Below, one piece after another: positions 5,410-32,961 of a stretch of 33,822 bases of DNA. Position numbers and translations under genes: made by a program. The stretch spans positions 1-33,822 of the IMG/VR virus record IMGVR_UViG_3300045117_000212; one strand, 5' to 3'. Numbering within the stretch: position 1 is the stretch's first letter; the number at the start of each line of letters is the position of its first letter. Under the pieces are notes generated by a model. That model was not told the origin of the DNA, did not search any database, and saw only the letters and a list, made by a program, of their open reading frames with translations. This stretch comes from a virus.

Positions 5410-5415
5410 AAATCA

Positions 5416-6570: not shown

Positions 6571-6575
6571 GAACC

Positions 6576-6606: not shown

Positions 6607-6624
6607 TGTTAGGTTGGTGGTTGC

Positions 6625-8665: not shown

Positions 8666-8680
8666 GTGTTATTTAAAAAG
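8665..8680 (+). promoter_or_regulatory. Late promoter element, copy 1
   Basis: AGTGTTATTTAAAAAG, starting on the last base of the upstream TGA. TATA-like core; ends 22 nt before the portal ATG at 8703, so the transcript may start at or next to that ATG. A purine-rich AGGAGGAGG lies between. Confidence 0.7.
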
Positions 8681-8702
8681 TCGGCAGGAGGAGGTTGAAG
8701 GT

Positions 8703-10919: not shown

Positions 10920-11308
10920 TGGGAGACGAGGCGGCTTATCTGGCATTCATAGATGAGGTTCTCACAATCGTAGCCTACAAAATACTGAACCAGGCAAACA
11001 AGAACATAGACGACTACAAAATAAACGACACCGGGCGACTTAGGGGCTCAGGGGTGGTGGAACCAGCTGGAGAGGAATATTTGATTGTCTGGAAAGCCCC
11101 TTATTCGGGGGCAATTGAGTTTGGCTCACACCCACACATGGTTCCAGCAGAAGTCCTGTATGGCTGGGTAAGGAGAAAAATGAGAATAAGCGATGACAGA
11201 AGAGCATGGGGAATCGCTTATGCAATCCAGAAGGAAATAGCCGAAAGCGGACAAACAGGAAGGCACTTCATAAGGGACGCAATAGACATGATGGCTGCCA
11301 ATCCTTAG
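10919..11308 (+). CDS. HK97 gp10-like head-tail/neck protein
   Basis: One hundred and twenty-nine residues from a GTG overlapping the portal stop, with GAGGTG about 9 nt upstream. The motif D-T-G-R-L-R-G-S followed by YSGAIEFGSHPHMVP and a tail helix is the HK97 gp10 family signature. Such proteins usually act in head-tail joining or tail completion, though the gene here lies early, between portal and protease. Good family match, role inferred. Confidence 0.75.
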   Translation: MGDEAAYLAFIDEVLTIVAYKILNQANKNIDDYKINDTGRLRGSGVVEPAGEEYLIVWKAPYSGAIEFGSHPHMVPAEVLYGWVRRKMRISDDRRAWGIAYAIQKEIAESGQTGRHFIRDAIDMMAANP

Positions 11309-11322
11309 TGTTATTTAAAAAG
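11307..11322 (+). promoter_or_regulatory. Late promoter element, copy 2
   Basis: AGTGTTATTTAAAAAG on the TAG stop of the gp10-like gene. It ends 21 nt before the ATG at 11344 but only 6 nt before the ATG at 11329, which favours 11344 as the protease start. Confidence 0.7.
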
Positions 11323-11343
11323 GGGAAGATGGAAGTGTTTGAT

Positions 11344-12387
11344 ATGCAAGCGCACATGACAAACTTGGCTTCACCTGCAATTGAGGGCAGTCCATCCATA
11401 TCACCCCCAATACTGATTAAGAATGAAGGTTTGCCCTCGCAGGATGAGGCATTTTACATTCTCAACTCAGACGAAAGGCTCTTTACGGCGTGGCTGTCCG
11501 TAGAGATAAAGGACAACCAAGGGCAGATAATCCCAATGGGCGAGTTCAAAAAGTCAATGCCGATGTGGATGGCAAGAGGGGCGCCGATAACAATAATGCA
11601 CTCCAACATGGTGGTAGGAAAGTGCCTCAATTACCAATTTGCGACAAACCCGGCTACGGGAGCAGAAGGAATACTTGTAACAGGATTGATTTTCAAAGGA
11701 AACACGCTTGACGACCAAGCATGGGAAAAGGTGCAGTCAAAACAGTTCGCAGGCGTTTCAGTAGGCGGGACGGCTTCACTCAAAAAATCAAAGGACGGCA
11801 TATTGAGGGGCTTTGAACTGTTTGAGATGGCTCTTGCAGATAAACCCGCAAACCCGGCAGCAGTAATAGAGACAGTTTCTCAGGTGGCAAAAGCAGATAC
11901 AACGCCAGTAAAAACGGAAAAAATCAACAAAGGTGATTTTGTGCCAGATGATGAAAAGAAACCCGAGGAGGAAAAGCCGAAGGTGGAAACAAAAGTCGAA
12001 CCTCCAAAAGAGGAAGCTCCGCCAGTGGCTCCTCCAAAAGAGGAAACAAAAACAGAAATGCCTCCGACTTCAGCACCACCAGCAGAAGCACAATCGGACA
12101 CGGCTGAGATGAAGGCGATACTGGTAAAAATCTATGAAATGCTCACATCCGCTCAACATGTCAAGGAGTCTGTGAAAACAGGAACAGCCCCTGTAGAGAC
12201 AAAATCGGACATAACGGCAGTGAGAAAATCAGAGGCGGAAATATCAACGCCGAGACCAGATGCCGTTTCTGACTTCTCCCCAAAAGAGGAGAAGAAAACC
12301 CTTGGCGACAAAGCGGTTGAAATCGCAAAGGGACTGGTAAGGTTCAACCCCCGCGAAGACTACCGGGCAAGAAGTAGCCAAAACTAA
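11344..12387 (+). CDS. XkdF-like prohead protease fused to scaffold-like tail
   Basis: Three hundred and forty-seven residues from ATG 11344 (352 from 11329). Residues 30-200 follow the XkdF putative serine protease pattern: FTAWLSVEIKDNQG, the H of 'ITIMHSNMVVGKC', and the S of 'FAGVSVGGTA', the likely catalytic His and Ser. The second half is rich in Pro, Glu and Lys, ending in helices, as in scaffold domains. The position directly before the capsid gene fits a protease-scaffold that shapes and matures the prohead. The promoter overlaps the preceding stop. Confidence 0.8.
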   Translation: MQAHMTNLASPAIEGSPSISPPILIKNEGLPSQDEAFYILNSDERLFTAWLSVEIKDNQGQIIPMGEFKKSMPMWMARGAPITIMHSNMVVGKCLNYQFATNPATGAEGILVTGLIFKGNTLDDQAWEKVQSKQFAGVSVGGTASLKKSKDGILRGFELFEMALADKPANPAAVIETVSQVAKADTTPVKTEKINKGDFVPDDEKKPEEEKPKVETKVEPPKEEAPPVAPPKEETKTEMPPTSAPPAEAQSDTAEMKAILVKIYEMLTSAQHVKESVKTGTAPVETKSDITAVRKSEAEISTPRPDAVSDFSPKEEKKTLGDKAVEIAKGLVRFNPREDYRARSSQN

Positions 12388-12396
12388 GGTGATAAA

Positions 12397-13596
12397 ATGC
12401 AATGGAACTATGGAAGCCAAGAAAACCTTGCTCTTTACGAGAGGCTCATCCAAGAGCAATACAAAGGAGTGCCAGCCTCTCCGTCTGACGTAACGTCAGT
12501 GAACAAAGCCGATGCGCCTATACTGTCCTCAACGACAGGCTTTTTCAATCCGGTTTATGGGGCGTCGGTAATGCAGCAACTCGCCCACGACAGCGTCCTT
12601 TTCGGGATGCTGCCAAAATACCCCTACAAGAAAAGGGGATTCAGGGCTGAAACCACGAGATTCGTGACAAGCGGAGTGGGTGTTGCGGAAAACGCAGCAG
12701 TGCCTGACAGCGTGAAAAACGCAATTGCAGCGGTTGATGTTCCAATAAAGGAGCACGCAATCACTGTTGAGATTTCAGAAAGACAGAGGCTCCTGATGGA
12801 AGCGGGGGACGACACAGCATATACCGACTACGCGGGAGTGATGGAAAGCGCAAAGAGGAGTTTCTCCTATGCTTACGACGCTGACATAAATACCGACGTA
12901 ACAACAGTCGCCTCCAACAACTCGGAGTCAATCGACAGGGTTGTTTCCTCATATGCAGAGGTTACTAACTGCGCTGATGTGAATGCAAACGACGCTGACA
13001 TTTACTCACTGGACAGGGATGCAGCTGCTTCATGGACGGATGCATATGTGAATCATGGCTCCAACGTAACAAGGGTTCTTTCAGACACCATCGTTAGGGC
13101 TGTTATGAGCAATACCGTTTCCAACGGGGCAGACCCCAGGACCCAAGTCTGGTATACAGGCGCAGACACTTACGAGGCACTTGTCGGATTGTATGGCACA
13201 CAGAACAGATACGCTATGCAATTCACAGGCCCCGGGACAAGTGCAGTGTCCGGAGAGCCCGCAAAAGGAATCGCTTACGGGATGGAGATGGCGACCCTTT
13301 ACGGAAGACCCTTCTTCGTTGCACCAACAGGAAAAGTGGTTGCAAACGGAGCAGCAGGAGCAGGAACGGCAATATCAAACCTCTACCTGCTTGACTTGGG
13401 AACCGACCCAATCTATGGCGAACCAATATTGGGCATAAAGACGCTCAGGGCTCCAATCCTTGCAAAGACAGGACTGATGGACGGTTACCCTGCGCACGCA
13501 AAGCTCGGCAACGAAACCATCATCTACGCTGCAATGGAGCTTGAATGCAAGAACTTTAAGCGACAGGGCAAAGCGAGAGACCTTGCAGCACCCTAA
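12397..13596 (+). CDS. Major capsid protein, HK97-type
   Basis: Three hundred and ninety-nine residues. AGGTGAT, a perfect SD, lies 4 nt before the ATG. The sequence has the expected N-arm, then an E-loop-like stretch (PYKKRGFRAETTRFVTSGVG), a long helix region (VEISERQRLLMEAGDDTAY) and C-terminal TDPIYGEPILGIKTLRAP, in keeping with HK97-fold capsid proteins. Neighbours (protease before, small head proteins after) support this. There is no signal peptide and only about three N-X-S/T sequons, unlike the fibre proteins. A hairpin follows the stop. Confidence 0.8.
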   Translation: MQWNYGSQENLALYERLIQEQYKGVPASPSDVTSVNKADAPILSSTTGFFNPVYGASVMQQLAHDSVLFGMLPKYPYKKRGFRAETTRFVTSGVGVAENAAVPDSVKNAIAAVDVPIKEHAITVEISERQRLLMEAGDDTAYTDYAGVMESAKRSFSYAYDADINTDVTTVASNNSESIDRVVSSYAEVTNCADVNANDADIYSLDRDAAASWTDAYVNHGSNVTRVLSDTIVRAVMSNTVSNGADPRTQVWYTGADTYEALVGLYGTQNRYAMQFTGPGTSAVSGEPAKGIAYGMEMATLYGRPFFVAPTGKVVANGAAGAGTAISNLYLLDLGTDPIYGEPILGIKTLRAPILAKTGLMDGYPAHAKLGNETIIYAAMELECKNFKRQGKARDLAAP

Positions 13597-13619
13597 ATGA
13601 TTGAATGATATTCCCTGTG

Positions 13620-13647
13620 TGCGCCGTGGGTAATTTTTAACGGCGCA
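13620..13647 (+). terminator. Hairpin after the capsid gene
   Basis: Perfect 8-bp arms TGCGCCGT and ACGGCGCA around a 12-nt AT-rich loop (GGGTAATTTTTA). It lies 23 nt after the capsid stop and 25 nt before the next start. It may stabilise or partly end the capsid mRNA; the TAATTTTTAA in its loop could also be a weak TATA box. Confidence 0.55.
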
Positions 13648-13672
13648 GAATAACCCTAAGAGGTGTGTGTTT

Positions 13673-13972
13673 GTGGCAAAAGTATTGAGGACGAAAGGGG
13701 GAGTGCGGGAAATCCAGTATTATGTGGCGGAAGGCGGAGGCTACCAGTTCGGGGATTCAGGAGAAACGGCTGGAATGTGCCTTGTGTTGAAAGAAAAACA
13801 CGTGTCCGAACTCCTGGCTGCACATGGGGACGATTTGGAAATTGTCCAAGAAAGCAAATGGCCTGAAATCTACAAGAAAAAGGCACAATCGTTTGAAGAA
13901 GACCTATTGGGGAAAGCGACAGCGGCGTTCCCTGAGGTCGTCGAGAAACTGACCGGAAAGAAAAAAAAATAA
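13673..13972 (+). CDS. Small head protein of unknown function
   Basis: Ninety-nine residues from GTG 13673 (MAKVLRTKGGVREIQYYV...), chosen because GAGGTG is 7 nt upstream. The N-terminal part looks beta-rich; the end is a Lys-rich helix. It lies between capsid and other structural genes, so a head accessory role is likely but unproven. Confidence 0.6.
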   Translation: MAKVLRTKGGVREIQYYVAEGGGYQFGDSGETAGMCLVLKEKHVSELLAAHGDDLEIVQESKWPEIYKKKAQSFEEDLLGKATAAFPEVVEKLTGKKKK

Positions 13973-13984
13973 TGAGGGATTGAC

Positions 13985-14239
13985 ATGGCATTTTCAAGCA
14001 CTTTGGTATTCAAAACTGTGATGGGGAACAAGAGCATGGAAGTTTGGTCTTTCAATTCTGCGGGCGTGACTTCTGGAAACATTGCCACAGGTCTCGCAAA
14101 CATAGCGGCAACCAAACTTGCAAACAAGACTGCTCAACGAGGAGTTGTGGACGACACGACCACCGCAGGGACAGTCGCACTCACAGGCCTTACATCAAAT
14201 GATGTTGGCTATGTGTTTGTTTGGGGACATTCGCTTTAG
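13985..14239 (+). CDS. Small hypothetical structural protein
   Basis: Eighty-four residues, rich in Thr, Ala and Gly: 'NIATGLANIAATKL' and 'GTVALTGLTSNDVGYVFVWGHSL'. No signal peptide. Composition and position suggest a capsid decoration or fibre-base protein. GAGGGA upstream serves as SD. Not recognised further. Confidence 0.55.
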   Translation: MAFSSTLVFKTVMGNKSMEVWSFNSAGVTSGNIATGLANIAATKLANKTAQRGVVDDTTTAGTVALTGLTSNDVGYVFVWGHSL

Positions 14240-14250
14240 AGGTGTTTCAC

Positions 14251-15354
14251 ATGATTAAGAGGCTGTTCGCCGGTCTTTTGCTACTGATGGCATTTGCATT
14301 TGGGGCAAGTTTGAGCTCCAACTTCTATCAGAGTGGCTTTGACGTAAGGCAGGCGACCATGACAAAAGAATACTATGGCAGCGAAACCGTCGGCTACTCG
14401 TCGGTTTTTGGCTCCATAAGATACCTCCAGGTCAAAAACTCAGGTGGAGAGGACATGTCGTATTCCATTCAGGATGACGCGGGAACAAGCCTCTATTCGG
14501 CGACGGTAGCCCCTGCCGCAACCCACACGAACAGGACTCTTCCCAACTACACCAATTACGGCGTGTTGAACCTCGTCTGTGCAAACAACTTCACAGGAGG
14601 CGGCAGCCTTCCAACAGGTCTTGTCTCATTCTGGAAACTTGACGAAGGGACAGGAAATACAACCGCCGACGTGAACGCTGCAAACACGCTTGAACTGCCA
14701 TCGGCACAAGGGGAAGGCGACAACACATGGACAACTTCGGGGAGATTCTACAATGCCACAACCCTCGACGGCGTGAATGACACGCTGCGACTGAACGACA
14801 GCGCAACAGTAAATGGAACAGCCTCAACGAGCTTCGCATGGGCGTTCTGGCTTTATCCAAACGCAGCACTTGGAACAAACAAGAGCGCGTATCTCTACCA
14901 CAAGGGAGTCAAGAACGGCAACGTAACGCCCGTTCCAATCAGCACAGGCGTAAATTCCACGGCTCTCCAGGCAATCAACAACACTGCCATAAAGCTGTTC
15001 GTCAATACCAACGTTACGCAAAGGACAGTCACTTACAACTCCGCCGACTTCAGCACTGCGGCATGGAGCCACTATTCAGTTACATTCAACGGCACCGACC
15101 TGAAGCTCTACATCAACGGGGCACTTGCAAGCAATGACACGCCAACCACTACCCAGAATCTCAATTGGACAAGCCAGAACTGGTTATTTGGGGATGGGTT
15201 CGACACAGGCAACAACAGCGTGGCATACTTCGCCAACTGGAACTATGACAGCATCATGTATTTCAACACGAGCCTCACAGCGGCGCAAGTGTCCTACCTT
15301 TACAACCAGACAAAGAAGGTGAATCTGCAAACAACAGTAATTGCCGTGAGGTGA
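14251..15354 (+). CDS. Secreted LamG/concanavalin-like protein, sequon-rich
   Basis: Three hundred and sixty-seven residues. Signal peptide at 1-18 (MIKRLFAGLLLLMAFAFG). From about residue 125 there is a LamG-like module: GLVSFWKLDEGTGN ... TLDGVNDTLRL ... FAWAFWLYP ... HYSVTFNGTDLKLYINGALAS ... YDSIMYFNTSLTAAQVSYLY. By my count about 18 N-X-S/T sequons. LamG folds bind sugars or protein surfaces, so attachment is a natural role. However, a signal peptide would export the protein, which is odd for a virion part assembled in the cytoplasm. GAGGTG precedes the ATG at 14251. Confidence 0.8.
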   Translation: MIKRLFAGLLLLMAFAFGASLSSNFYQSGFDVRQATMTKEYYGSETVGYSSVFGSIRYLQVKNSGGEDMSYSIQDDAGTSLYSATVAPAATHTNRTLPNYTNYGVLNLVCANNFTGGGSLPTGLVSFWKLDEGTGNTTADVNAANTLELPSAQGEGDNTWTTSGRFYNATTLDGVNDTLRLNDSATVNGTASTSFAWAFWLYPNAALGTNKSAYLYHKGVKNGNVTPVPISTGVNSTALQAINNTAIKLFVNTNVTQRTVTYNSADFSTAAWSHYSVTFNGTDLKLYINGALASNDTPTTTQNLNWTSQNWLFGDGFDTGNNSVAYFANWNYDSIMYFNTSLTAAQVSYLYNQTKKVNLQTTVIAVR

Positions 15355-15370
15355 GTTTTGGTGATTCAAA

Positions 15371-15958
15371 ATGCCAGCTGCACCACAATCCATTTCACGG
15401 AAGGACCTTGCTACCAAGAATGACCCCAACTCCATAAAGCAAGGAATCGCTGGCTATGGAGTATGTTCGGGACTTGCAGTTTCCGCAGGGACAGGGCTCC
15501 AGGTCTCCATCGCTTCCGGAAATGCCCTGTTTGCTTCAACACTCGTGATAAAAAGCGGAGCAACTACCTTGAACCTGACGGCTGCCGATTCAACCAACCC
15601 CCGAAAGGACATAATAGTTCTTGCTTCAGACGGGACAATAAGCGCAGTCGATGGAACGGCAGCAGCAATCTATCTTCCATCCGACACGAAGTTTCAGTTG
15701 CTCTCTCCCTATCCCGAGGCCATACCCTCTGGCAAGATAATACTGGCGGAGGTCTATGTGGCGGCAGGGGCAACGAGCCTTGCGGCTTCTGACATAAACG
15801 ACAAGAGGGTTTTGCTTTCAGGCAATTACAAAATCTCGACTGTTTTCTCGGCAGACGCAAATGGCATTACTTTTAAAGCAAGCGATGGAACAACTACCAT
15901 AGCCGTTCTTGATGACAGCGGAAATTGGGGAATAAAGGGAATGCAATACACATTATGA
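15371..15958 (+). CDS. Fibre/baseplate-type protein
   Basis: One hundred and ninety-five residues. The pattern NPRKDIIVLASDGTISAVDG ... IPSGKIILAEVYVAAGATSL ... DINDKR is characteristic of phage tail-fibre or baseplate proteins. No signal peptide, unlike its two flanking genes. GGTGAT lies before the ATG. The end overlaps a possible upstream start of the next gene (ATGA at 15955). Likely a fibre base or collar. Confidence 0.7.
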   Translation: MPAAPQSISRKDLATKNDPNSIKQGIAGYGVCSGLAVSAGTGLQVSIASGNALFASTLVIKSGATTLNLTAADSTNPRKDIIVLASDGTISAVDGTAAAIYLPSDTKFQLLSPYPEAIPSGKIILAEVYVAAGATSLAASDINDKRVLLSGNYKISTVFSADANGITFKASDGTTTIAVLDDSGNWGIKGMQYTL

Positions 15959-15966
15959 GGGAAACC

Positions 15967-18900
15967 ATGAGGCAATTACTTATCCTCCTGTTTCTGATGG
16001 GAAGTGTTTTTGCCGCAATAGGAGACCCTTCCAAGTTTGGAAATAGCACAACAGTAACCTGCTACATAGGCGGAACGCAAGGCATTCTCAACTGCACTGG
16101 TCAGCTCATCGGAAAGAACCTAACCTTGATGACTGTTTGCAGTTCAGGGCAATTCCTCACCCTCAACACGACTACCAATCTCACCTATTGCGCGTCGCCG
16201 CCAGCATACCAGAACGGTTCAAGCAACCTCACAATAACTCAGGTCTTCGCAAACTTCTCGGCAACATCCCCCTGGCTAATCTACAACGGGGCAGGCAACT
16301 ACGCTTGGAACGACACTATGGGAAATCTCACATATTTGCTAAACTCTGTCTTCACGAGCGAAAACTCCTCAATCTGGTCAGCAATCAATGCGCGACTTCT
16401 CACCTCCACATTCAACGCGGAAAACGCCTCAATCTGGAGCGCGATAAACGCAAGGCTTCTGACATCCACTTTCACAGCGGAAAACGCATCCATATGGAGC
16501 TCAATAAACTCCCTCATCACTTCAAACGCAAGCACGAACGACAGAATTACGTCGGTCAATTCATCAGTCCAGGGGATTTTCACCGACTATGCGAACAAGA
16601 GCAAGAGCGAAACGATAATTGGCAACTGGCTCTTCACCCCGTCGAGCAACGTCACCTTCAGCAGCGGCAGGGTTCTCTTCTACTCGCCTGTCTTCTTCTA
16701 CAACGACACCACCTACTCCAACACGAATGCGATGAGGGTGAATTCCAGCATAACCGTGACGGACATCGGCAATGTTTCAGTCGTGAATATCAGCGATGAT
16801 GGAACAGGGAAGGGTAGGATTTGGAGCAACGGCTACGCAATCTTCCAGCAGACCGTCCAGGCGAGCGAGTTCAGCGGGGCGTTAAACTGGACTTTCCTGC
16901 AAAATTATCCTTCGGGATGCTCAACAGGATATGCCGTCCAAGCAGTAGGAGATACTCTCGCATGCGTCCTAATGCCCACAGGGAATGTCACAGGCTCGTT
17001 TTCAGCCAACCAAGTGCCATACGCCACCAACTCCACAAACTTAGCAAGCTCGCCGAACTTGGTTTTCAATGAAACACAGCTATCCATCAACGGAACACTA
17101 AGAATCAACACCAACAACATCATAGACATGCGCACAGGCTCGGCTACGAGCGTGGATAGGCTTGACATACTTGCCACGCAGGGAAACAGAGGGTCTTCAA
17201 TCCAACTGATTCCATCGGGAACAGGCACATTTTCAAAGTTCGCCACCGCGAACCAGAACTCCTCCTCAAACTTCGGAAGCATCATCATAGCCGCAGACGG
17301 AAACACAGGCTGGATTAATCCGCAGCAGGTCGGAACACCGACAACGAACCTGACAATACTCAGAATTGGCGGCGTTCCACCGACTGCGGGAGGCACGAAC
17401 TGGAGCGAAATACACCTCTTCAGCAGCAACGTGTCATTCCGCACAAACGAGTTGAGAATCGCTGACATTTCCAATACGTTCATAGGCTCATTTGCCGCAG
17501 TGTTGAATAACACAACCGTTCCCACAGCCAGCAGCACATTCGGCACATCAGTTCGCGGGCTTCCAAACGGGCATCTTTTCCTTGATGTTTTCAACAATGA
17601 CATCAATGATGCGGTGATGGTTCGTTTCAACAACTCAACAGCCATCAGCATCGGCGCAGTTTTCAGACCATCTTCCATAGACTTCTATGGAAACCTTAGA
17701 CCAGACGGGGCAGACTGCGGAGACGGGCAAACGATATATCGCATCACCGATGGGAATTGGGGGTGCGTTACGCCTATTGGTGGCGGTGCAGCAACAAAAC
17801 AGGTAGGGTATTGGCATACCGACACAATTTTAGCCGGTAGCGGAACATTCTACTACGACTTCGATAATTTCCTTCTTGGTGTGGGCGGAGAGATGGCAAG
17901 CGACCCGTCGGCAACACTCGATGTGAGGCAACAGGCAATCGACGGTGGAGCAGCCACCATCACTCCCGCATTCAAAGTCACAGGAGGCAGCCACACCCAG
18001 ATGGCTTCCGAAAACCACGACGCATTCTTCAATTTCAGCAGGACACTGATAATGCCAGGCGCATTTTCAAACCAACGGCAGTTCTACATTACTGCACCCG
18101 AATACAGGGATGGAGATGGATTAAATATCCAATCCGCAGCGACGGTAGCAATATCAGGCGCACCCCGACTTCAAAGCGGCGTGTTGGAGCATTCCGCAGC
18201 ACTTGACATAGAAGGCGGAAGCGTAACGACAGGCGGAACCCCAACCAACGCATACGGGCTTCGCGTTGCCGCACCGACTGGCGCAACGAACAACTATGCG
18301 GCACAGTTCAACGGGTTGCTTGACGCCACAAACGGTTTCAAGCTTCAAGGCGCACTGACTCTACCCGCCAATTCAGTCACAGATGCCTTCATTAATTCAG
18401 TTAATTGGACAAAAGTCTCAAACGCCCCTTGGATAACGAACAACCCTTACAACCTCACCATCAATTCAAGCCTCTCCATGCCCAATACATCGGGCAGGAT
18501 AGTTCTTTCAGGCAGACTATACGCAGACCAAGTAGGGACTCTTACTGACGACCAAATGTTGAGAAGAGGCGAATACCACAGACCAATGGTGAATTACACC
18601 GGTGCAAATGCGTCGCTTGCCATAACGGGGATGGCCTTTGAGCCGTATTTCAACGCAACAAACATAACCTTTCCAACGGTCATCGGTTTTGACATGCAGC
18701 CAAGAATACAGGGCAATACGACCACATACACAAATATGCGCCTTATAATGCCTATTAATTCAGGCACAGGAAATCCAAACACAACAACAACGACCAATAT
18801 TGAAGTCAGGAAGCCAACGCTTCTCGGCAACATCACCAATGTCATATTTAGCCTGGGCGGAGTGGCTTCTGTTTCGCCGTCGGGTAACTATTCCGTATAT

Positions 18901-19110
18901 GACGACTCTGGTTGGAACTGGTATCTGAAAAACAGCAACCTGACTGTCAATGGAACAATCAACGCAAGCTCATTCCTCATGCCGAGCGTAAATTCGCTTT
19001 CCTGTTCCGCAACAATCAAAGGCTCTCTCGGCTACAACTTCACGAGCAACAGGCCGTGCTACTGCAACTCAACGTCATGGCTGAACATGACGGGAGGGAC
19101 AGTGTGTTAA
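15967..19110 (+). CDS. Large secreted fibre-like protein with dense N-sequons
   Basis: One thousand and forty-seven residues from ATG 15967 (GAGGGA 5 nt upstream; an ATG at 15955 adds four residues). Signal peptide 1-15 (MRQLLILLFLMGSVFA). Residues 129-188 are three 20-residue repeats (ENASIWSAINARLLTSTF type), probably a helical stalk. The rest is beta-rich with fibre-like motifs (DPSATLDVRQQ, AYGLRVAAPTGATNNYAA). The end has a Cys-rich tail (C-S-A-T ... C-Y-C-N-S-T ... C). I count about 50 N-X-S/T sequons. A tail fibre or adhesin in outline; the signal peptide and sequons imply passage across the membrane and N-glycosylation. Confidence 0.75.
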   Translation: MRQLLILLFLMGSVFAAIGDPSKFGNSTTVTCYIGGTQGILNCTGQLIGKNLTLMTVCSSGQFLTLNTTTNLTYCASPPAYQNGSSNLTITQVFANFSATSPWLIYNGAGNYAWNDTMGNLTYLLNSVFTSENSSIWSAINARLLTSTFNAENASIWSAINARLLTSTFTAENASIWSSINSLITSNASTNDRITSVNSSVQGIFTDYANKSKSETIIGNWLFTPSSNVTFSSGRVLFYSPVFFYNDTTYSNTNAMRVNSSITVTDIGNVSVVNISDDGTGKGRIWSNGYAIFQQTVQASEFSGALNWTFLQNYPSGCSTGYAVQAVGDTLACVLMPTGNVTGSFSANQVPYATNSTNLASSPNLVFNETQLSINGTLRINTNNIIDMRTGSATSVDRLDILATQGNRGSSIQLIPSGTGTFSKFATANQNSSSNFGSIIIAADGNTGWINPQQVGTPTTNLTILRIGGVPPTAGGTNWSEIHLFSSNVSFRTNELRIADISNTFIGSFAAVLNNTTVPTASSTFGTSVRGLPNGHLFLDVFNNDINDAVMVRFNNSTAISIGAVFRPSSIDFYGNLRPDGADCGDGQTIYRITDGNWGCVTPIGGGAATKQVGYWHTDTILAGSGTFYYDFDNFLLGVGGEMASDPSATLDVRQQAIDGGAATITPAFKVTGGSHTQMASENHDAFFNFSRTLIMPGAFSNQRQFYITAPEYRDGDGLNIQSAATVAISGAPRLQSGVLEHSAALDIEGGSVTTGGTPTNAYGLRVAAPTGATNNYAAQFNGLLDATNGFKLQGALTLPANSVTDAFINSVNWTKVSNAPWITNNPYNLTINSSLSMPNTSGRIVLSGRLYADQVGTLTDDQMLRRGEYHRPMVNYTGANASLAITGMAFEPYFNATNITFPTVIGFDMQPRIQGNTTTYTNMRLIMPINSGTGNPNTTTTTNIEVRKPTLLGNITNVIFSLGGVASVSPSGNYSVYDDSGWNWYLKNSNLTVNGTINASSFLMPSVNSLSCSATIKGSLGYNFTSNRPCYCNSTSWLNMTGGTVC
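16351..16530 (+). repeat. Three 60-bp coding repeats in the fibre gene
   Basis: Copies at 16351, 16411 and 16471, each encoding a 20-residue unit like F-x-x-E-N-A-S-I-W-S-A-I-N. The third has diverged at its end. Confidence 0.8.
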
Positions 19111-19197: not shown

Positions 19198-19656
19198 ATG
19201 GTCGAAAACAGCACAGCCAAAGTCGAGGCAGCCCCTCCAGCAAAAGGAATCGCTACAGAAGGAACTACATCAACCCAGCTTCCGCAATGGGATTTTTTTC
19301 AATGGGACTACTGTATGTATGAAGGTCTGGTAACGTCAGGTGCACCTCCTGATGGGGAAGCAGTTGTTGAAACAACCAAACAGGCAAAAGGTTCAGTAGA
19401 AGCACCGAAAAGGTCAAAATCATTTGTGGAAGCCACAAAACAGGCAACGGGGTCGGTAGAATCTGCCATCAGGTCAAAATCATTTGTGGAAACAACACGG
19501 TCAGCAAAAGGTTCAGTAGAAGCACCGAAAAGGTCAAAATCATTTGTGGAATCTGCCCAAATGGCTAAAGGCACAGTAGAAGCAGTCAAACGTTCAAAAT
19601 CATTTGTGGAAGCCACAAAACAGGCAAGGGCATACATTGAGCCAACGAAGGTTTAG
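19198..19656 (+). CDS. Decapeptide-repeat protein
   Basis: One hundred and fifty-two residues; AGGAGG 7 nt before the ATG. The N-terminal 60 contain 'TSTQLPQWDFFQWDY' and no known motif. Residues 60-150 are about nine copies of a 10-residue unit, consensus V-E-A-x-K-x-x-K-x-x, alternating GS/SF endings (VEAPKRSKSF, VEATKQAKGS). The regular V/E spacing suggests stacked beta turns or a charged fibre. No signal peptide. Not assigned to a family; its place between fibre and connector genes suggests a virion or surface role. The stop carries promoter copy 3. Confidence 0.7.
   Translation: MVENSTAKVEAAPPAKGIATEGTTSTQLPQWDFFQWDYCMYEGLVTSGAPPDGEAVVETTKQAKGSVEAPKRSKSFVEATKQATGSVESAIRSKSFVETTRSAKGSVEAPKRSKSFVESAQMAKGTVEAVKRSKSFVEATKQARAYIEPTKV
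19381..19620 (+). repeat. Four 60-bp tandem coding repeats
   Basis: Exact 60-bp period starting at 19381, 19441, 19501 and 19561; each has TCAAAATCATTTGTGGAA at the same place. Each encodes two decapeptide units. It is not CRISPR: repeats are contiguous and coding. Confidence 0.85.
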
Positions 19657-19670
19657 TGTTATTTAAAAAC
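19655..19670 (+). promoter_or_regulatory. Late promoter element, copy 3
   Basis: AGTGTTATTTAAAAAC on the TAG stop of the repeat-protein gene. Followed by GATGAGGT and the non-ATG start of the connector gene. Confidence 0.65.
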
Positions 19671-19699: not shown

Positions 19700-20623
19700 G
19701 TGATTTTTATCGGAGTCTGGTTTGCTTGGCCCGCGCCAACAACTGAAAGCAGCTGGAACACGAGTCGAATATACAGGGCAACCTCACAATCAGGTTCTTT
19801 CAGCCTTTTGGTATCACAGACATTGTCCCTCTCTGCACCGGACACGACTTACTACGATGAGTCTGGGACAGGCACTCACTGGTATAAGTATTCATTCTAC
19901 AACTCGTCAAGCACAGTAGAAAGCCCATTATCTGACGCAATTCCCGCCACAAGAACAACAGTCACCTATTGCCAGCCGCAGGACGTTGCCGAACTCCTGC
20001 AATTCAGGAACAGCCAAGAACTCCATATGTTCGACTCACAAACAAAGCCAAACATTTTTGAAGTCCTTACCTACATCCGAAGGGCAGAAGACTACATCGA
20101 CAACAAGACAGGACACGCTTGGAGGGCAAGATATTCCGGAACCCCTGGCAACGACGCAACCGCTGCCGAGTGGGAACACCTTGACCAGCACATACCCTAC
20201 AAGAAGGGGCAAGGCTATCCTCTTTACATGAAACATCGCATGGTAAGAACACTTGCCGCTGGTTCAGGAGACGCCGTTTCTGTCTGGAATGGCTCCTCAT
20301 ACACCGATTACCTCGCAAGCAAAACAGAAGGAAGAAACAATGACTTCTGGGTGGATTACGAGAGAGGGATTCTTTACCTTATTGATGCTTCATTCGTGAG
20401 CCTTGACGATGCGGTGAGAATAAAATACCGATACGGAGATTCCACCGTTCCTGCCGACATAGAACACGCAGCGACACTTTTGGCAGCCATCCATGTCCTT
20501 GAAGGGGATGAAAGGAGCACCGTATTCCCGGAAGGCTCGTTCCGTTCCGCCATAGGGGAAAAAATCTATGACCTGAAAAAACAGGCGGAAGAAATAATCA
20601 GAGCACACACTGAGACGCAGTAG
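19700..20623 (+). CDS. Connector protein with Fn3-like N-terminus
   Basis: Three hundred and seven residues from GTG 19700; the in-frame ATT at 19694, 9 nt after GAGGT and 23 nt after the promoter, is an alternative. Residues 1-95 look like a fibronectin-III-like fold (FAWPAPTTESSW ... SRIYRATSQSGSFSLL ... SPLSDAIP). From about 100 on (CQPQDVAELLQF ... ILTYIRRAEDYIDNKTG-like) it resembles head-tail adaptor proteins that seal the portal. The fusion is unusual. Position before the tail-completion gene supports it. Confidence 0.65.
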   Translation: MIFIGVWFAWPAPTTESSWNTSRIYRATSQSGSFSLLVSQTLSLSAPDTTYYDESGTGTHWYKYSFYNSSSTVESPLSDAIPATRTTVTYCQPQDVAELLQFRNSQELHMFDSQTKPNIFEVLTYIRRAEDYIDNKTGHAWRARYSGTPGNDATAAEWEHLDQHIPYKKGQGYPLYMKHRMVRTLAAGSGDAVSVWNGSSYTDYLASKTEGRNNDFWVDYERGILYLIDASFVSLDDAVRIKYRYGDSTVPADIEHAATLLAAIHVLEGDERSTVFPEGSFRSAIGEKIYDLKKQAEEIIRAHTETQ

Positions 20624-24356: not shown

Positions 24357-24734
24357 ATGACTACAACCTTGAATGCCATTTCGCTTGAAGAAGTGCAGAC
24401 GGAGCACGTTTCAATAGAGACGGGGCTTGTTCCGCTTCCGCCGCCTGACGACGGAACTTCAACAACAGCGGACACCATAATTGTTTCGCTCATCGCTCCC
24501 ATGAGGCAGTTTCAGATAACAGGGATAAAAGTCGATACAATCGCCAACCTCAGGACATTTGCCAGCGGGATAATTTCGGCGGCACAGAACCAAGAAACAG
24601 CCCACACCTACCATTCGGACTTTTTCAACGCAAATTACAACGTGAAAATCAGCGGCTACACCTTTGATTATGTTGCAGGGGAGCCGGCGACCCTTGAATA
24701 CCAATTGACCTTGATTGAGGGCAGTTCCATATGA
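24357..24734 (+). CDS. Small tail protein
   Basis: One hundred and twenty-five residues, beta-rich, no motifs recognised: 'TEHVSIETGLVPLPPPDDGTSTTAD ... VSLIAPMRQFQITGIKVDTIANLRTFASGI'. Lies between tape measure and hub; the stop overlaps the hub start (ATGA). A distal tail or baseplate adaptor is the best guess from order. Confidence 0.5.
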   Translation: MTTTLNAISLEEVQTEHVSIETGLVPLPPPDDGTSTTADTIIVSLIAPMRQFQITGIKVDTIANLRTFASGIISAAQNQETAHTYHSDFFNANYNVKISGYTFDYVAGEPATLEYQLTLIEGSSI

Positions 24735-26227
24735 CGAAATACATAACAGTGAAATTGAACAGCAACACGGTTACCACTTATGTCCGAAACTACAAGATAG
24801 ACAAAAGGATAAGCTCGGATGCGCTCATAGACGAGTGCAACATAGAATTTTTCAAATCCTGTTCCCCCGTTCCCGCCGTGGGGCAAACGATAGAAATCTA
24901 CTCAGGTTATTCGGCAAACCCGACAGTCAGGAAGTTTTACGGGATTGTGAGAGACGTCCAAACGTCAAAGGAGATTTACAAGGCGAAATGCCTCTCCCGA
25001 TTGGTCCTTGCCGCTGATGCCCTTGTAAATACCGTCTATAATTCCAACGGCTCAACCGCAGGTGTCGTTTCGGCGATAGTGGATGACCTTTTTGAGACAT
25101 ACGCAGGGCTCACCTGTTCGGTGGTAACAACGCCAGACGTAATCTCCAAGTTCATTTGCAGGAACACCGACGTTCTTGAAAGGTGCGTCCTATTGGCGCA
25201 TCAGGTCGATTATGACATACACTATGACCATGATGCCGACGTTGTCTATTTCAGACCAAGGGAGTATTCCACCAATTCGGGAACAATCTACATTGGAACG
25301 GCAAGCAACTCCGTTTCCCAGGCAGTCAAGTGGAAGGACATCGGAATACAGGACTTGTTCAACAAGCTCACAATCTACGGCGCAACGGTCTATGTTTCGG
25401 ACACAAAGAGCTTCACGGCTTCAGCGGCACAAACAACAACAACCCTCAGCCATATCCCTGACGTGGTGAAAGTTACCAAGAACGGAACAGAGCAGGTAGG
25501 CGGTTTATCAGGCAGCACCACATCTTACGATTACCAAGTGGACAGGGAGAACAAGAAAATAACATGGGCAGTCGCTTTTGCAGGAGGGGAAAGCGTCGTG
25601 GTAACCTACTACTACAATGTCCCCGTTCCTGTCCAAATGCAGGACGCCACCTCGATAGCGGCTTACGGCACGATACACAAGATATTCACTTTCACTGACC
25701 TTACCACAGTCGATGATGCGATACAGCGGGGGCAGCGGCTTCTGAACAACTACAAAAACCCATTCAAGTTGTCAGAGCTATACCTGTTGCCAGACTCCGT
25801 AAATACCCTGAACCCGCAAGTGGGGCAGAGAATAAGGGTCACGGACAATCTCGTGTCGATAAACGACTACTTTGTGATAAAGCAAGCGACAGAAGAATAT
25901 CCAGAGAAAGGGATGCTGCTGACTATAAGCGACAAGGAGTGGAAGTGGCAATCGACGGAAATATCAACACAGCTTCGCATTAAAAGGCTTGAAGAACAGC
26001 TGAACGAAGGCGACCAAGTTGTTTCACAGGTAATAACAGGCGGAGCAGATGCCGCCGCAGCAAGAACAACGTTGGAGGCATTGGCAGCCAGAGTAAATGA
26101 CAGTTTCATATTGGGACATTGGCTAAACGGACAATTGGCAAGGGGAATTATCTTAGATGACTTTGAGTCAAGTCCCTTATCAAATTGGACAGGAACATCC
26201 TGCACCCTTTCGGAGCAAACCGCATGA
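24731..26227 (+). CDS. Tail hub/baseplate protein ending in a truncated jelly-roll module
   Basis: Four hundred and ninety-eight residues. The front resembles tail hub (gp27-like) proteins: 'VGQTIEIYSGY ... RKFYGIVRDVQTSK ... LVLAADALV'. A coiled-coil-like stretch follows at about 415-445. The last 25 residues (ILDDFESSPLSNWTGTSC...) look like the beginning of a carbohydrate-binding jelly roll, but the frame stops after 'LSEQTA'. The rest of such a module appears in the same frame from 26711. It would form the tail tip. The stop overlaps the next start. Confidence 0.7.
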   Translation: MTKYITVKLNSNTVTTYVRNYKIDKRISSDALIDECNIEFFKSCSPVPAVGQTIEIYSGYSANPTVRKFYGIVRDVQTSKEIYKAKCLSRLVLAADALVNTVYNSNGSTAGVVSAIVDDLFETYAGLTCSVVTTPDVISKFICRNTDVLERCVLLAHQVDYDIHYDHDADVVYFRPREYSTNSGTIYIGTASNSVSQAVKWKDIGIQDLFNKLTIYGATVYVSDTKSFTASAAQTTTTLSHIPDVVKVTKNGTEQVGGLSGSTTSYDYQVDRENKKITWAVAFAGGESVVVTYYYNVPVPVQMQDATSIAAYGTIHKIFTFTDLTTVDDAIQRGQRLLNNYKNPFKLSELYLLPDSVNTLNPQVGQRIRVTDNLVSINDYFVIKQATEEYPEKGMLLTISDKEWKWQSTEISTQLRIKRLEEQLNEGDQVVSQVITGGADAAAARTTLEALAARVNDSFILGHWLNGQLARGIILDDFESSPLSNWTGTSCTLSEQTA

Positions 26228-26709
26228 GCAGCATAAAATACGTCGTAATGTTTTCCATTCTTTTGGCTACTTTTGGCTGTTTAGGATTCCTATTTCCACA
26301 AGACGGCAAGCAGAAATATCCGTGGGAAGGACTCTCTACGGGCGCTGGCGGCAATCTGTCAGTTGTATTTGGAAGCGGCATCAGTTCTGTTTATTTCAAC
26401 GCAAGCACCCATGTTTCAAGGAACGTTTCAGCGACCAATCAGACAAGCTCGATAGCGTTGTTCAATGTCACGAATATCGGAGGCAACAACACATCAATAA
26501 ACATGAGCATCAATACGAGCATTACGGGATTCACGGTCAGGTGCGCCCAACACTACAACCAGACGGGCCTTACGAACCTGACCATATCTAACCGGACAAT
26601 CGCAAACATCAGCACAAACGCAACGGTCAGGATTTGGTGTTGGGCTGACTTTTACTACGCAAACAAAAGCGCAGCAAGGAACTTCAATATCAGCGTGACA
26701 GAGGGATAA
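26224..26709 (+). CDS. Exported, very sequon-dense small protein
   Basis: One hundred and sixty-one residues. N-terminal signal or anchor segment (MSSIKYVVMFSILLATFGCLGF). The rest has about sixteen N-X-S/T sequons in about 130 residues, by my count, and is likely heavily glycosylated outside the cell. A start inside the hub gene's final codons (ATGA) and an inserted position in the middle of a split jelly-roll suggest it came in as an extra (moron-like) gene. May mask the host surface or exclude other viruses; unproven. Confidence 0.65.
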   Translation: MSSIKYVVMFSILLATFGCLGFLFPQDGKQKYPWEGLSTGAGGNLSVVFGSGISSVYFNASTHVSRNVSATNQTSSIALFNVTNIGGNNTSINMSINTSITGFTVRCAQHYNQTGLTNLTISNRTIANISTNATVRIWCWADFYYANKSAARNFNISVTEG

Positions 26710-26710
26710 A

Positions 26711-27223
26711 ATGCCGGGATTTGGGGGAACATTCGACATCAACGACTCGCTCGTGCTCGTGGGCAGCAAGAGCCTCAAAGCGGTGGCAAGCGCAAGCACA
26801 TTCAGCATCGCCACAACTCAGAGCTTCGGAGACCTCTCGACATACACAGGAGTCGGCTCAGGTGCGCCTACAAGCGGAACTGTGGGCATTTGGGTCTATT
26901 GCGCTTCGGGGGAAATTACCTCCGTAACGCTCCGCATGGGCAGCAGCTCAATCAACTACTCGGAAGTGGCGGGAGTGAAGACATATACCAACGGGACAGA
27001 CACCCAAGACGGCTGGAACTATTTTGTTTTCCGCCTGACAAATGCGACAACAACGGGAACGCCCGTCTGGACAGCAGTAGCATACGCAAGAATCCAAGCG
27101 GTAAGCACAACCACACCAACAGTTATATTTGATTACTTCGCAATAGGGACAGGAAACGTAATCGGATTGAATGGAATGGGGGACAGACGAACAGACTACC
27201 AACTGTATAGCGTTACATATTGA
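26711..27223 (+). CDS. Carbohydrate-binding jelly-roll-like module, likely 3' half of a split module
   Basis: One hundred and seventy residues; GAGGG before the ATG. 'INDSLVLVGSKSLKAVA ... TTQSFGDLSTYTGV ... GTVGIWVYCASGEITSVTLRMG ... WNYFVFRL ... ARIQAV ... VIFDYFAIG' is a typical carbohydrate-binding jelly-roll, but without the usual 'DDFE...W' first strand. That strand is at the end of the hub gene in the same reading frame, 484 nt upstream. Probable receptor-binding tail part. Confidence 0.65.
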   Translation: MPGFGGTFDINDSLVLVGSKSLKAVASASTFSIATTQSFGDLSTYTGVGSGAPTSGTVGIWVYCASGEITSVTLRMGSSSINYSEVAGVKTYTNGTDTQDGWNYFVFRLTNATTTGTPVWTAVAYARIQAVSTTTPTVIFDYFAIGTGNVIGLNGMGDRRTDYQLYSVTY

Positions 27224-27232
27224 GGTGAAACC

Positions 27233-28291
27233 ATGCCGGGCACAGCAGAGGGAGCATATCCAAAGTCAAACGGCGACATTTTGTATGCAAGTGAGACTAA
27301 TAATGTGAAAATGCACATCGCAGGTCAGCGATATGTAGGGGACGGTAGTGATGGGGCACTGAGCGTGACAAGCGGGACAACGACAATATCGAGCAGTGTA
27401 AAAAGATACACCTCCATGTCTATCAGCGCAGGTGCGACGCTCGCGTTTGGAACAGTAGGAAAATTCATAATTTACTGTCAAGGCGATTTTACCCTAAATG
27501 GAACACTTTCTTTGGGTAATAAGGTAGGCACCTCTCCAACAACATTCGATTCAAGTGCAGGAAGCACGGGGGATGGGAACCCCGGAGGAGCAGCAGGAGT
27601 GGTGAACGCCCCATTGTTCGGTTCTTTTTCTGTGGTGAAACTTGATTGGATAGGCTCTGAGGGTTCTAATGGAGGCGTTGGCAAAACTAATTCTTACGGC
27701 AATGGCGGAGGCGGCGGCGGAGGCGGTAGTCTTCTTGTGGCAGGTGGAGCCGGTGGCAATGGTGGAGTGTCTGGGGGCGCAACCGCTGGTGCGGGTGGTG
27801 CAGCGGGCGTCGGAAAATGCGCTGTCATTATTTTTGTGGGAGGAACAATCACATTCGGTGCGTCATCATCCATCGTTGGCACTGGCAACTCGGGTTCTGT
27901 CGGAGCTGGCGGTAGTTTTCCGACCAACAGTAGTGGCTCAGGAGGCGGAGGCGGTGGAGCAAGCGGATTCGTTATGATTTTTGGAAATAAGGAAGCAACC
28001 CTCACAACAGGGGCAACAGTTACTTTAGTGGGAGGAGCAGGTGGTGCAGGTGGAGCCGGAGCTGGGGGGACAAATGGAGGCGGCGGAGGAGGCGGTGGCG
28101 GAGGCTCGGGGGGAGTTTTTGTCTTATTGTGCAACGGAACCCTCTCCAACAGTGCAACTATATCAGTTTCGGGCGGTGCAGGGGGGGCTGGAGGAGCCGG
28201 AGGCAACGCTGGAGGAGCAGCAGGAGCTAATGGCTCCAATGGCAATACTGGTCTATCATTTGTCCTAACCAACTCATACGCGATTTCATAG
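27233..28291 (+). CDS. Glycine-rich adhesin/tail-tip fibre
   Basis: Three hundred and fifty-two residues. The N-terminal 100 are beta-rich (a beta-helix-like run 'TMSISAGATLAFGTVGKFIIYCQGDFTLNGTL'). Then four to five glycine runs (GNGGGGGGGGS, GSGGGGGGAS, GGAGGAGGAGAGG, and others) alternate with short beta segments (KCAVIIFVGG, GFVMIFGN, GGVFVLLCN). This resembles the polyglycine-sandwich adhesins of T-even-like phages (gp38). Host recognition is likely. GAGGTGAA precedes the ATG. Opposite-strand Pro-rich ORFs here are shadows. Confidence 0.7.
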   Translation: MPGTAEGAYPKSNGDILYASETNNVKMHIAGQRYVGDGSDGALSVTSGTTTISSSVKRYTSMSISAGATLAFGTVGKFIIYCQGDFTLNGTLSLGNKVGTSPTTFDSSAGSTGDGNPGGAAGVVNAPLFGSFSVVKLDWIGSEGSNGGVGKTNSYGNGGGGGGGGSLLVAGGAGGNGGVSGGATAGAGGAAGVGKCAVIIFVGGTITFGASSSIVGTGNSGSVGAGGSFPTNSSGSGGGGGGASGFVMIFGNKEATLTTGATVTLVGGAGGAGGAGAGGTNGGGGGGGGGGSGGVFVLLCNGTLSNSATISVSGGAGGAGGAGGNAGGAAGANGSNGNTGLSFVLTNSYAIS

Positions 28292-28299
28292 GTGGTCTT

Positions 28300-29199
28300 A
28301 TGGCAGTTGGAGCAGTAATCACAAACAACGGCGAAGACCTGTTGCACTACAGGCTTTATGGGACAGGCTCAAAGAGTGCTGTTACAAAACTACACATTGG
28401 AGTGGGGACAACAACACCAGCCGAAGGAGACACGAATATACAGACACTTGTGCCAGTAACTTCCCAATTAATCAACAAGTGCGACACACCAGGGGATTTT
28501 TCACAAAGCACCGATGCAATAACGCCAACAGCGAACACAACCACTTACAAAGAAGGCTATGGGACAACGGACAACACTTCCCTTAACATCGGAAAATCAG
28601 GGACAACGGAGGCCCTTGTCTATTATCGGGACACTGTTTCAATCGACATGAGCGGAACATCGCCGTATATGTGGTGCTGGCTGCATATCCTGAACTCAGG
28701 CGCACTTGCAAAAATCTCCAATGTGCAGCTTTATGTAAGGCAAGGCGCAAATTACCGATATTGGCAAACAGGTGTTGCTTCACTTGCTGTCGGCTGGAAC
28801 CTGATAAAAACGGGGGTATTCACCAGTTACACAGGACAAAGTGGAACAGCACCCACTCTTTCGGCCATAGACACAATAGAACTGCGAATCAACACAACAG
28901 CATCGAGCGATACCTTTAGCTTGGGGGACTTGAAGATGGACTTCTTCCATTGGGAACTTTTTGCCAACTCCAATATTGGGGCGCTTACCGGCTATCCGAC
29001 TGTTTCAGGACAGGTGGCGACAGCCCGTTATTACATCTCATCCACAAAGGCGCTTGGCTACGATTTGAGGGAATGTGGGGAGTTCAACACCGACTCTACT
29101 CCGGTCATGTATTCCCATGACGTCCATAACAGCCTCGGCTCTTCCGGAAAAACAAGCGAGATTGAACTGCATTACATTCTTACACACACAATCAGTTAG
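28300..29199 (+). CDS. Tail fibre/receptor-binding protein
   Basis: Two hundred and ninety-nine residues; AGGTGG before the ATG. N-terminus 'AVGAVITNNGEDLLHYRLYGTGSKSA', a fibre-like base. The middle has a complete jelly-roll ('TSLNIGKSGTTEALVYYRD ... MWCWLHIL ... VGWNLIKTGVFTSY ... IDTIELRINTTAS ... LKMDFFHWEL'). The C-terminal part (YYISSTKALGYDLRECGEF) is beta-rich. Last gene of the tail unit; stop carries promoter copy 5. Confidence 0.65.
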   Translation: MAVGAVITNNGEDLLHYRLYGTGSKSAVTKLHIGVGTTTPAEGDTNIQTLVPVTSQLINKCDTPGDFSQSTDAITPTANTTTYKEGYGTTDNTSLNIGKSGTTEALVYYRDTVSIDMSGTSPYMWCWLHILNSGALAKISNVQLYVRQGANYRYWQTGVASLAVGWNLIKTGVFTSYTGQSGTAPTLSAIDTIELRINTTASSDTFSLGDLKMDFFHWELFANSNIGALTGYPTVSGQVATARYYISSTKALGYDLRECGEFNTDSTPVMYSHDVHNSLGSSGKTSEIELHYILTHTIS

Positions 29200-29213
29200 T
29201 GTTATTTAAAAAG
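29198..29213 (+). promoter_or_regulatory. Late promoter element, copy 5
   Basis: AGTGTTATTTAAAAAG on the TAG stop of the fibre gene; ends 20 nt before the ATG at 29234, the spacing expected for a leaderless transcript. It should drive the lysis unit. Confidence 0.7.
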
Positions 29214-29233
29214 GAAAAATTGCAAGTGGAACC

Positions 29234-30310
29234 ATGGCGCTTCAGGAACTTTTTGAAGGGGTCTTTTGCAAACGGGTAATCTTGGAGAGGGACGGATTCC
29301 AGCAGACAACCTCCGACCTGACGAAAAAACTGGCTGCCCTTGAAATAAGCATAATCAACTGCGACAGGGAAAAGAACGCCATTATCAGCGCCGCGAAGGA
29401 AGGGGAAAAACAGAACCTGTGGAGAATAGGGCAGCTTGAAGCGGAAAAATCGGCGTTGCAACAGAAATACGCCGACCTGCTCACAACAATAAACAACCTT
29501 GTTCCGTCGGAGACAGAGCCATATTCCCCCAATTTCAAGAGGCTTCTTGATTCAACCCAACAAAAGCTCATCGCCTATGAACACAAATACACGAAAGTCT
29601 ACATTTCCTATCGTGCAAGATTCGTCGGGAAAAACCCAGACAACGCCATTGACATGGACGTGAAGCCCTTTTTCTCATGCGGACTGCAGGACGCCCGAAT
29701 ATCCGGGTGGCTCGCAGAAAACAAGTGCCGCGTCAAAGACGTTTCTCTCCAATACCCCGACAAGACATTTGACGAGTGGTGCGAAATTGCCTGCACAAGA
29801 ATACAGGCAAGGCTCCCGAATCCTTACGGTTATGACCAAGACAGGTGGGGACGCAATGAATTCTGGGAATATGCGACTGAAACGTTCTATGGGAGCCAAG
29901 ACAAGAACCTCTCCTTTGATTGCGACAGTTGGGCTATCCTGAAGCACGTAATGCGAATGGCGGCGGGAGTTCCGGAGGAGATGCTGCGGTTTGTCTGCGG
30001 GACAACCTTCGACAACCAAGGGCACGCCACAAACGCGGTCTATTCCCCCTCAAGAGGATTCTGGATTCACATGAACAGCACCAGCAGAGGCACGGACAAT
30101 GACGACATAAGGCAGTTCAAGAGGATGGGGGACGCCACCGAATCGCTGAACATAAAACTGCCGTGGTGGTCAAGCACTTCAAAGTTCTCGTATATGCAGA
30201 TGATTAGCGACGCACAGGAAGCGGAAGTGAAACGAAGAGTGCGGAACAAGTCAAAGGAAAACAGGCTCCTACGAAAAATAAAGGTGTCCTCATTGAAGGT
30301 GAAGCTATGA
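29234..30310 (+). CDS. Coiled-coil plus transglutaminase-like cysteine peptidase (candidate endolysin)
   Basis: Three hundred and fifty-eight residues. Residues 20-110 form a coiled coil. From about 170 on, a transglutaminase-like fold with C in 'SFDCDSWAILKHVMRMAAGVP', H in 'DNQGHATNAVY' and later 'GFWIHMNSTSRG', the usual Cys-His order of these enzymes. Pseudomurein endopeptidases of methanogen viruses (PeiW/PeiP) are related in general type. No signal peptide, as for endolysins released by a holin. First gene of the candidate lysis unit. Alternatively, a virion peptidase used on entry. Confidence 0.7.
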   Translation: MALQELFEGVFCKRVILERDGFQQTTSDLTKKLAALEISIINCDREKNAIISAAKEGEKQNLWRIGQLEAEKSALQQKYADLLTTINNLVPSETEPYSPNFKRLLDSTQQKLIAYEHKYTKVYISYRARFVGKNPDNAIDMDVKPFFSCGLQDARISGWLAENKCRVKDVSLQYPDKTFDEWCEIACTRIQARLPNPYGYDQDRWGRNEFWEYATETFYGSQDKNLSFDCDSWAILKHVMRMAAGVPEEMLRFVCGTTFDNQGHATNAVYSPSRGFWIHMNSTSRGTDNDDIRQFKRMGDATESLNIKLPWWSSTSKFSYMQMISDAQEAEVKRRVRNKSKENRLLRKIKVSSLKVKL

Positions 30311-32502: not shown

Positions 32503-32961
32503 ATGGGAAACATTCAATATCTCGCAGGAATAATCGATGGGGAAGGCTGTATTTTTGTGAAGCGTTCTACTTATCGCATGCGCTCGGAAAAATATGGGGA
32601 TTGTAAGAACCCAGAATTTCATCCACGCATTCAGGTCAAGATGACCAACGAAGAAGTGCTACGTCTCCTCGCAAAAGAATTCGGAGGCTCAATTTATCAA
32701 GAGAAACGTCTGCATCCCTCCCGTTCTGGATTCGCGCCGAGAAAGCTCCTCTGGGTTTGGCATACCAGCGACAGAAAAGCGGCACAAGCGTTCGAGCAGT
32801 TAATTCCATTTCTTATTGTGAAGAAAAAGAATGCGGAGAACGCATTTGCCCTTTACAAATTCAAGAAATCAATCCACAGAGAAAAGCATCGCGCATTCTC
32901 AACGGGAGAAGTTGCTCGTTTAGAAGAATATTATCAAATGAGCAAAAGACTGAACAAATGA
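32503..32961 (+). CDS. LAGLIDADG homing endonuclease
   Basis: One hundred and fifty-two residues. The motif 'YLAGIIDGEGCIFV' at the start is the single LAGLIDADG signature, so it probably works as a homodimer; the following 'RIQVKMTNEEVLRLLAKEFGG' is typical. Such enzymes cut an uninterrupted allele so that repair copies them in. GGTGG lies just before the ATG. It is flanked by two copies of a methyltransferase N-terminus, see findings. It is a free-standing enzyme, not an intein. Confidence 0.9.
   Translation: MGNIQYLAGIIDGEGCIFVKRSTYRMRSEKYGDCKNPEFHPRIQVKMTNEEVLRLLAKEFGGSIYQEKRLHPSRSGFAPRKLLWVWHTSDRKAAQAFEQLIPFLIVKKKNAENAFALYKFKKSIHREKHRAFSTGEVARLEEYYQMSKRLNK

Follow-up and report, generated by a model that had tools for sequence, protein, structure and literature searches.

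The window, i.e. the whole analysed stretch of 33,822 bases, is a virus record with a siphovirus-like gene order of terminase, portal, capsid, neck, tube, tape measure, a 125-aa distal-tail gene, hub and tail-tip genes, in which several gene names were assigned by position only. At the locus studied here (Table 1), the hub ORF terminates in VNDSFILGHWLNGQLARGIILDDFESSPLSNWTGTSCTLSEQTA immediately before its stop codon, and the ATG of a gene for an exported protein overlaps this stop (ATGA). Behind the exported gene follows an ORF that starts with MPGFGGTFDINDSLVLVGSKSLKAVAS in the reading frame of the hub; sharing a frame is a 1-in-3 chance and was given little weight.

Table 1. Features of the split hub locus in the window
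Feature	Position	Strand	Basis
Tail hub protein, 498 aa, cut short within its nested C-terminal jelly-roll	24731..26227	+	homology to related hubs
NDSFILGH motif of the hub, just ahead of the jelly-roll nesting point	26096..26119	+	conservation
Hub C-terminal end GIILDDFESSPLSNWTGTSCTLSEQTA, jelly-roll first strand(s), proposed donor strand	26144..26224	+	first-strand HMM, AlphaFold, G015 identity
GGAG, Shine-Dalgarno-like site of the exported gene, within the hub-end codons	26212..26215	+	read directly; 8 nt before ATG 26224
Exported sequon-rich protein, 161 aa, 486 nt, between the halves	26224..26709	+	sequon count, G015/G016 homology
GAGGG, Shine-Dalgarno-like site of the jelly-roll gene	26701..26705	+	read directly; such a site also in the G015 gene
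Stand-alone jelly-roll protein, 170 aa, module without first strand plus hub tail	26711..27223	+	profile match, G015 identity, fused-hub homology
Jelly-roll protein N-terminal 16 residues, partly redundant with hub end	26711..26758	+	low pLDDT
Jelly-roll protein C-terminal tail GNVIGLNGMGDRRTDYQLYSVTY, equivalent to the hub's own C-terminus	27152..27220	+	fused and jelly-roll-less hubs

The sequence-only reading had put the N-X-S/T sequons of the exported protein at about sixteen, and 16 were indeed counted, compared with 4.0 in shuffles (0 of 500 shuffles reached 16). Neither an endonuclease nor any other Pfam or PHROG family was detected in this protein, which is probably a host-surface or secreted glycoprotein. 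Two further exported sequon-rich proteins are encoded in the structural cluster of the window, at 14248-15354 (19 sequons versus 8.3 expected, with a Laminin_G_3 domain) and at 15925-19110 (53 sequons versus 23.5 expected).

Single tail proteins used as direct queries recovered no relatives in IMG/VR, the GTDB genomes (searched with the hub only) or the phage collection. Relatives were reached via the portal (11 loci) and then with an alignment of the capsid protein, which gave 78 virus loci in all and one archaeal MAG contig; the hub and the 170-aa protein were then searched against the records from this route, and the window hub was found to be homologous to the hubs of 11 related records. 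An IMG/VR scan with the hub alignment, a pattern that was too loose, yielded one new hub only, bearing a different C-terminal module, and the fused module described below had no match in the phage collection. The tail tip of contig G014, which is among the closest in capsid protein, is of a different kind and was uninformative on the split. An archaeal host is likely for the window virus, given its sequon-rich exported proteins, the archaeal MAG contig and its HFTV1 relatives.

One jelly-roll module on two genes

The sequence-only reading had suggested that a jelly-roll was cut after its first strand at the hub end and resumed from 26711, and had proposed a search for an uninterrupted form in related viruses. 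Such a form was found in three contigs, G023 (679 aa), G024 (791 aa) and G012 (at least 587 aa, cut by the contig end), where hub and jelly-roll lie in one open frame and the C-terminus of the fused hub is homologous to the 170-aa protein. An HMM of the full module matched the 170-aa protein at positions 25-158 of 161 with 114 bits, so that the rest of the module does lie there, and positions 1-24 were missing from the match; a complete, independent jelly-roll in this protein, which would have spoken against the suggestion, was thus not what the profile found. Modules on unbroken genes start at model position 2-4 (the L130 fragments set aside).

A second HMM, for the first strand, was built from relatives with every split virus, the window included, left out, and was run on the six frames of the window. 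It matched best at the extreme C-terminal end of the hub frame (8.7 bits, E 0.086), over all 29 positions and up to the last residue of the hub. A segment this short gives a weak score by itself; the next best match in the window reached 4.6 bits (E 1.7). The hub end aligns in this way to module positions 1-29, and together with the 170-aa protein it tiles one module with an overlap of a few model positions.

The NDSFILGH motif is conserved in fused, split and jelly-roll-less hubs. In G021 and G018 the hub has no jelly-roll; only a short stretch follows its NDSFIxGH motif, with GDR(R/C) in the tail. The 170-aa protein ends with GLNGMGDRRTDYQLYSVTY, like the end of the fused hub G024 (GLNGVGYR...), and resembles the jelly-roll-less hubs at GDRR, a short match that rests mainly on the fused intermediates. 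From these likenesses, the hub carries the jelly-roll as a nested module directly ahead of its own tail; what the 170-aa protein holds is therefore the larger part of the module plus the tail of the hub. Fission of a hub-jelly-roll gene is very probable. The earlier suggestion that an insertion broke one gene in two stands as far as both pieces derive from one hub-jelly-roll gene; the exported gene is no more than a candidate for the breaker, since its relatives are found at other places too in related viruses, e.g. upstream of the hub in G029.

The same module was also seen outside hubs of this kind. In G011 (L015:9516-10667) it is uninterrupted and nested in a relative of the neck-like protein at 19700-20623 of the window, the window copy of which has no module, and the jelly-roll appears to move between virion genes. 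TGTPDWT was matched by 34 contigs (L123-L156), most of which carry a complete module nested near residue 190-350 of tail-hub-like proteins of roughly 800 aa from another virus group. On the minus strand of L130 the module extends over two neighbouring ORFs (at 4502 and 5300) about 45 nt apart, which is most simply a frameshift or assembly error and was rejected as a split of the same kind. The middle of the protein at 28300-29199 of the window resembles the same kind of jelly-roll by eye, and the module profile finds no match in it; its G015 counterpart is a protein of 130 aa without the jelly-roll-like middle.

The second split lineage

The same cut, together with a homologous exported gene, is present in two other contigs, G015 and G016. 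Their hub ends with GQVLEDWEDGTTGWAGTNCTLSEQTDV before the stop and is followed by an exported sequon-rich protein of about 740 aa, a gene of up to 326 aa and a jelly-roll protein of 169 aa, so that the interval between the halves is about 3 kb with two genes. The jelly-roll proteins of both contigs match the module profile from position 28, and that of G015 is 66% identical to the one of the window. Both pieces are kept as open frames with their own start sites, the jelly-roll gene having its own Shine-Dalgarno sequence and ATG in either lineage, and are conserved in the second lineage with synonymous changes.

The 742-aa exported protein that G015 and G016 encode at the same place has a C-terminal part homologous to the exported protein of the window (48% over 113 aa). 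In the 33 records searched, clear homologues turned up in these two contigs only; one in G012 or G023 may have been missed, since these fused contigs end at or soon after the hub. Weaker relatives were found in G014, as the final part of an exported protein of 942 aa, and in G029, upstream of a different hub; the latter was followed as a possible third split and rejected, its hub end not being jelly-roll-like. G015 and G016 also share with the window, at the same place, a 345-aa gene similar to that at 29234-30310, the product of which weakly resembles transglutaminase-like cysteine proteinases (Peptidase_C93, E 4e-5, under the cut-off).

Between the window and G015 the hubs are 32.5% identical pairwise, and the core is 27% identical in the multiple alignment. 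In the last 44 residues 27 of 43 aligned positions match (about 63%), a part of which is made up by the NDSFILGH motif common to all these hubs, compared with at most 18 in other 44-column windows. Of the last 15 residues 10 are identical. In the jelly-roll part of the hub tail about half of the positions match, and the end CTLSEQT is identical with synonymous codon changes. Since the GGAG of the exported gene of the window lies within the same codons, constraint on the DNA from this site and the start of the exported gene may be behind part of the identity.

The hub cores group G015 with the fused G012 (52% identical) and reject a grouping of the window with G015 (p 0.0004). The jelly-roll data prefer the window with G015 (support 92/86) and do not reject G015 with G012 (p 0.13). 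The split block may have been transferred from lineage to lineage, may have been ancestral and followed by re-fusion, or may have two origins.

Predicted fold and known systems

AlphaFold was given a read-through composed of the hub tail, an out-of-frame spacer and the 170-aa protein, and the 170-aa protein alone. In the read-through model the hub tail was placed confidently (pLDDT about 94 at residues 31-40, strands 32-35 and 37-42), as was the jelly-roll core, while the spacer had low confidence and the first 16 residues of the 170-aa protein were below pLDDT 50. Modelled alone, this protein had a pTM of 0.72, with pLDDT <50 in the first 14 residues and lower confidence in the first strands. 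The best PDB match of the read-through was the HFTV1 turret 8qpg (Z 13.6, rmsd 2.7, 144 residues aligned from model residue 17), which the lone protein matched with Z 8.9 (rmsd 2.9, 118 aligned). The structure prediction proposed by the sequence-only reading supports reassembly in the sense of compatibility, not of binding or independent proof: the result was steered by fused relatives present in the alignment, and the alignments of the two jobs were not the same.

The predicted model, hub tail included, has a CBM-like or galactose-binding-like jelly-roll fold, the same beta-sandwich as CBM27, CBM11, CBM30 and CBM22 (Z about 10-12), and no Pfam CBM family reached the cut-off for the module. 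Binding of carbohydrate or glycans would fit this fold. By sequence, the only clear PDB relative of the module was the turret head protein gp31 of HFTV1 (PDB 8QPG, E 4e-4), also its top structural match, in which a galactose-binding-like domain has been described at residues 57-198 (PMC12494034). There, a complete module is carried on a capsid turret protein and followed by a deacetylase-like domain, whereas the module of the window is incomplete and separate.

A profile of 6 hubs had its best PDB match in the baseplate hub gp44 of HFTV1 (9H4P, E 1.6e-6, profile positions 307-442; further entry 9H7V), and the window gene is by this sequence homology a tail hub of the HFTV1 kind. A carbohydrate-binding domain has been predicted at the C-terminal end of gp44 (PMC12494034); it lies within the hub chain, whereas in the window the domain is split off as a second protein.

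Genes in pieces are known from T4-like phages, i.e. Aeh1 nrdA with mobE, T4 gene 60 with mobA and phage 25 gene 43, where insertion of a gene into a coding sequence has produced two polypeptides that still function jointly (PMC2988022). The hub gene of the window resembles these in having an insert between its pieces, an uninterrupted homologue in relatives and both pieces retained as genes. The T4-like inserts are homing endonuclease genes (the origin for gene 43 being unsure) and their targets enzymes (PMC2988022), whereas the insert of the window encodes an exported sequon-rich protein in which no homing endonuclease was found, and its target is a virion receptor-binding module. In donor-strand complementation, as in pili and TasA (PMC9674648), a strand of one chain completes the sheet of another; the hub tail of the window is alike by prediction only, its strand donation would not be polymerising, and the likeness concerns the principle, with no claim to a common family.

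Readings of the split

The arrangement can be explained as follows. An ancestral tail-hub protein would have had a nested carbohydrate-binding jelly-roll directly ahead of its C-terminal tail, and in the window virus and in the lineage of G015 and G016 the gene would have been split inside the jelly-roll after the first strand, an exported sequon-rich protein gene now sitting between the halves. The hub would retain the first strand(s) at its very end, and the 170-aa protein, with its own start, would comprise the remaining jelly-roll and the true C-terminus of the hub. The incomplete jelly-roll most likely receives the hub tail as a donor strand, and a lectin domain would in this way be held at the tail tip non-covalently. 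We favour, with moderate confidence, gene fission in which the hub tail acts as strand donor to a separately translated lectin domain. The sequence-only reading had proposed that the halves reassemble in the tail tip; this holds at the level of prediction, and reassembly by non-covalent strand donation is somewhat the better bet, as the predicted structure and the conservation of both halves in the second split lineage support it. Assembly in the virion, and any role of the exported protein, are what we infer.

Strand donation is weakened by the distance of about 3 kb between the halves in G015, by the shared hub motif, which accounts for part of the hub-tail conservation, by a DNA constraint that may account for another part, and by the chance that the N-terminus of the jelly-roll protein replaces the lost strand. 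The last point leads to a reading in which the split is real, the hub end is a relic and the 170-aa protein needs no partner to fold and function, being a tail-tip lectin that is free or attached in some other way. The start site of this protein in both split lineages, the jelly-roll model obtained for it alone (with its Z score to 8qpg) and the residues GTFDIND, which could occupy the second-strand position, agree with such a lectin. The hub tail is, however, conserved well above the hub core between the two split viruses, and the lone protein is without model positions 1-24 and has a poorly predicted N-terminus, so that we regard a self-sufficient lectin as possible but rather doubtful.

The remaining readings are all very improbable. 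Fused forms exist in other viruses, as would be expected if 26225-26710 were a removable segment, the loss of which in some members of the population produced a fused adhesin. The search for repeats or a target-site duplication flanking the insert gave only short chance-like repeats, no recombinase family was found among the proteins scanned, and the pieces overlap slightly, so that clean excision would give no exact module; with the two-gene interval of G015 and the Shine-Dalgarno sequence and ATG of the jelly-roll gene in both lineages, the adhesin switch of the sequence-only reading has to be largely given up. Bypassing is known from gene 60 of phage T4, and the common frame of the halves in the window would suit programmed bypass, recoding or RNA splicing into one protein; the same ribosome-binding site and start codon, and the two-gene interval of 3 kb, speak against it, and an Rfam scan of 25900-27400 detected no intron and no structured RNA. 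An assembly artefact joining unrelated DNA at the junction might be suspected because L002, the only near-identical second contig, spans 4209-17885 and leaves the junction uncovered, but the same arrangement recurs in G015 and G016, and the ATGA overlap, like the start sites, has a native look.

Should strand donation by the hub tail be true, a receptor-binding module that is interrupted within its own beta-sandwich, and has stayed so in two diverged lineages, would be a natural case of strand complementation building a virion tail tip, and the virus could exchange its lectin domain without rebuilding the hub. As a tentative extension, which we consider on the unlikely side, the donor strand of the hub may non-covalently mount a separately encoded plug-in adhesin, with hub tail, exported glycoprotein gene and lectin forming a cassette exchangeable between lineages that pairs a receptor-binding part with its cognate surface protein.

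Some further features of the window were recorded. A LAGLIDADG-type protein at 32503-32961 (E 4e-6, above the cut-off) and an HNH protein at 5416-6030 (E 5e-7) are possible free-standing endonucleases away from the split. Identical stretches of 15-26 nt recur near gene starts or ends at 29189-29214, 11299-11323, 19653-19669 and 8665-8680, and are possibly a shared regulatory element.
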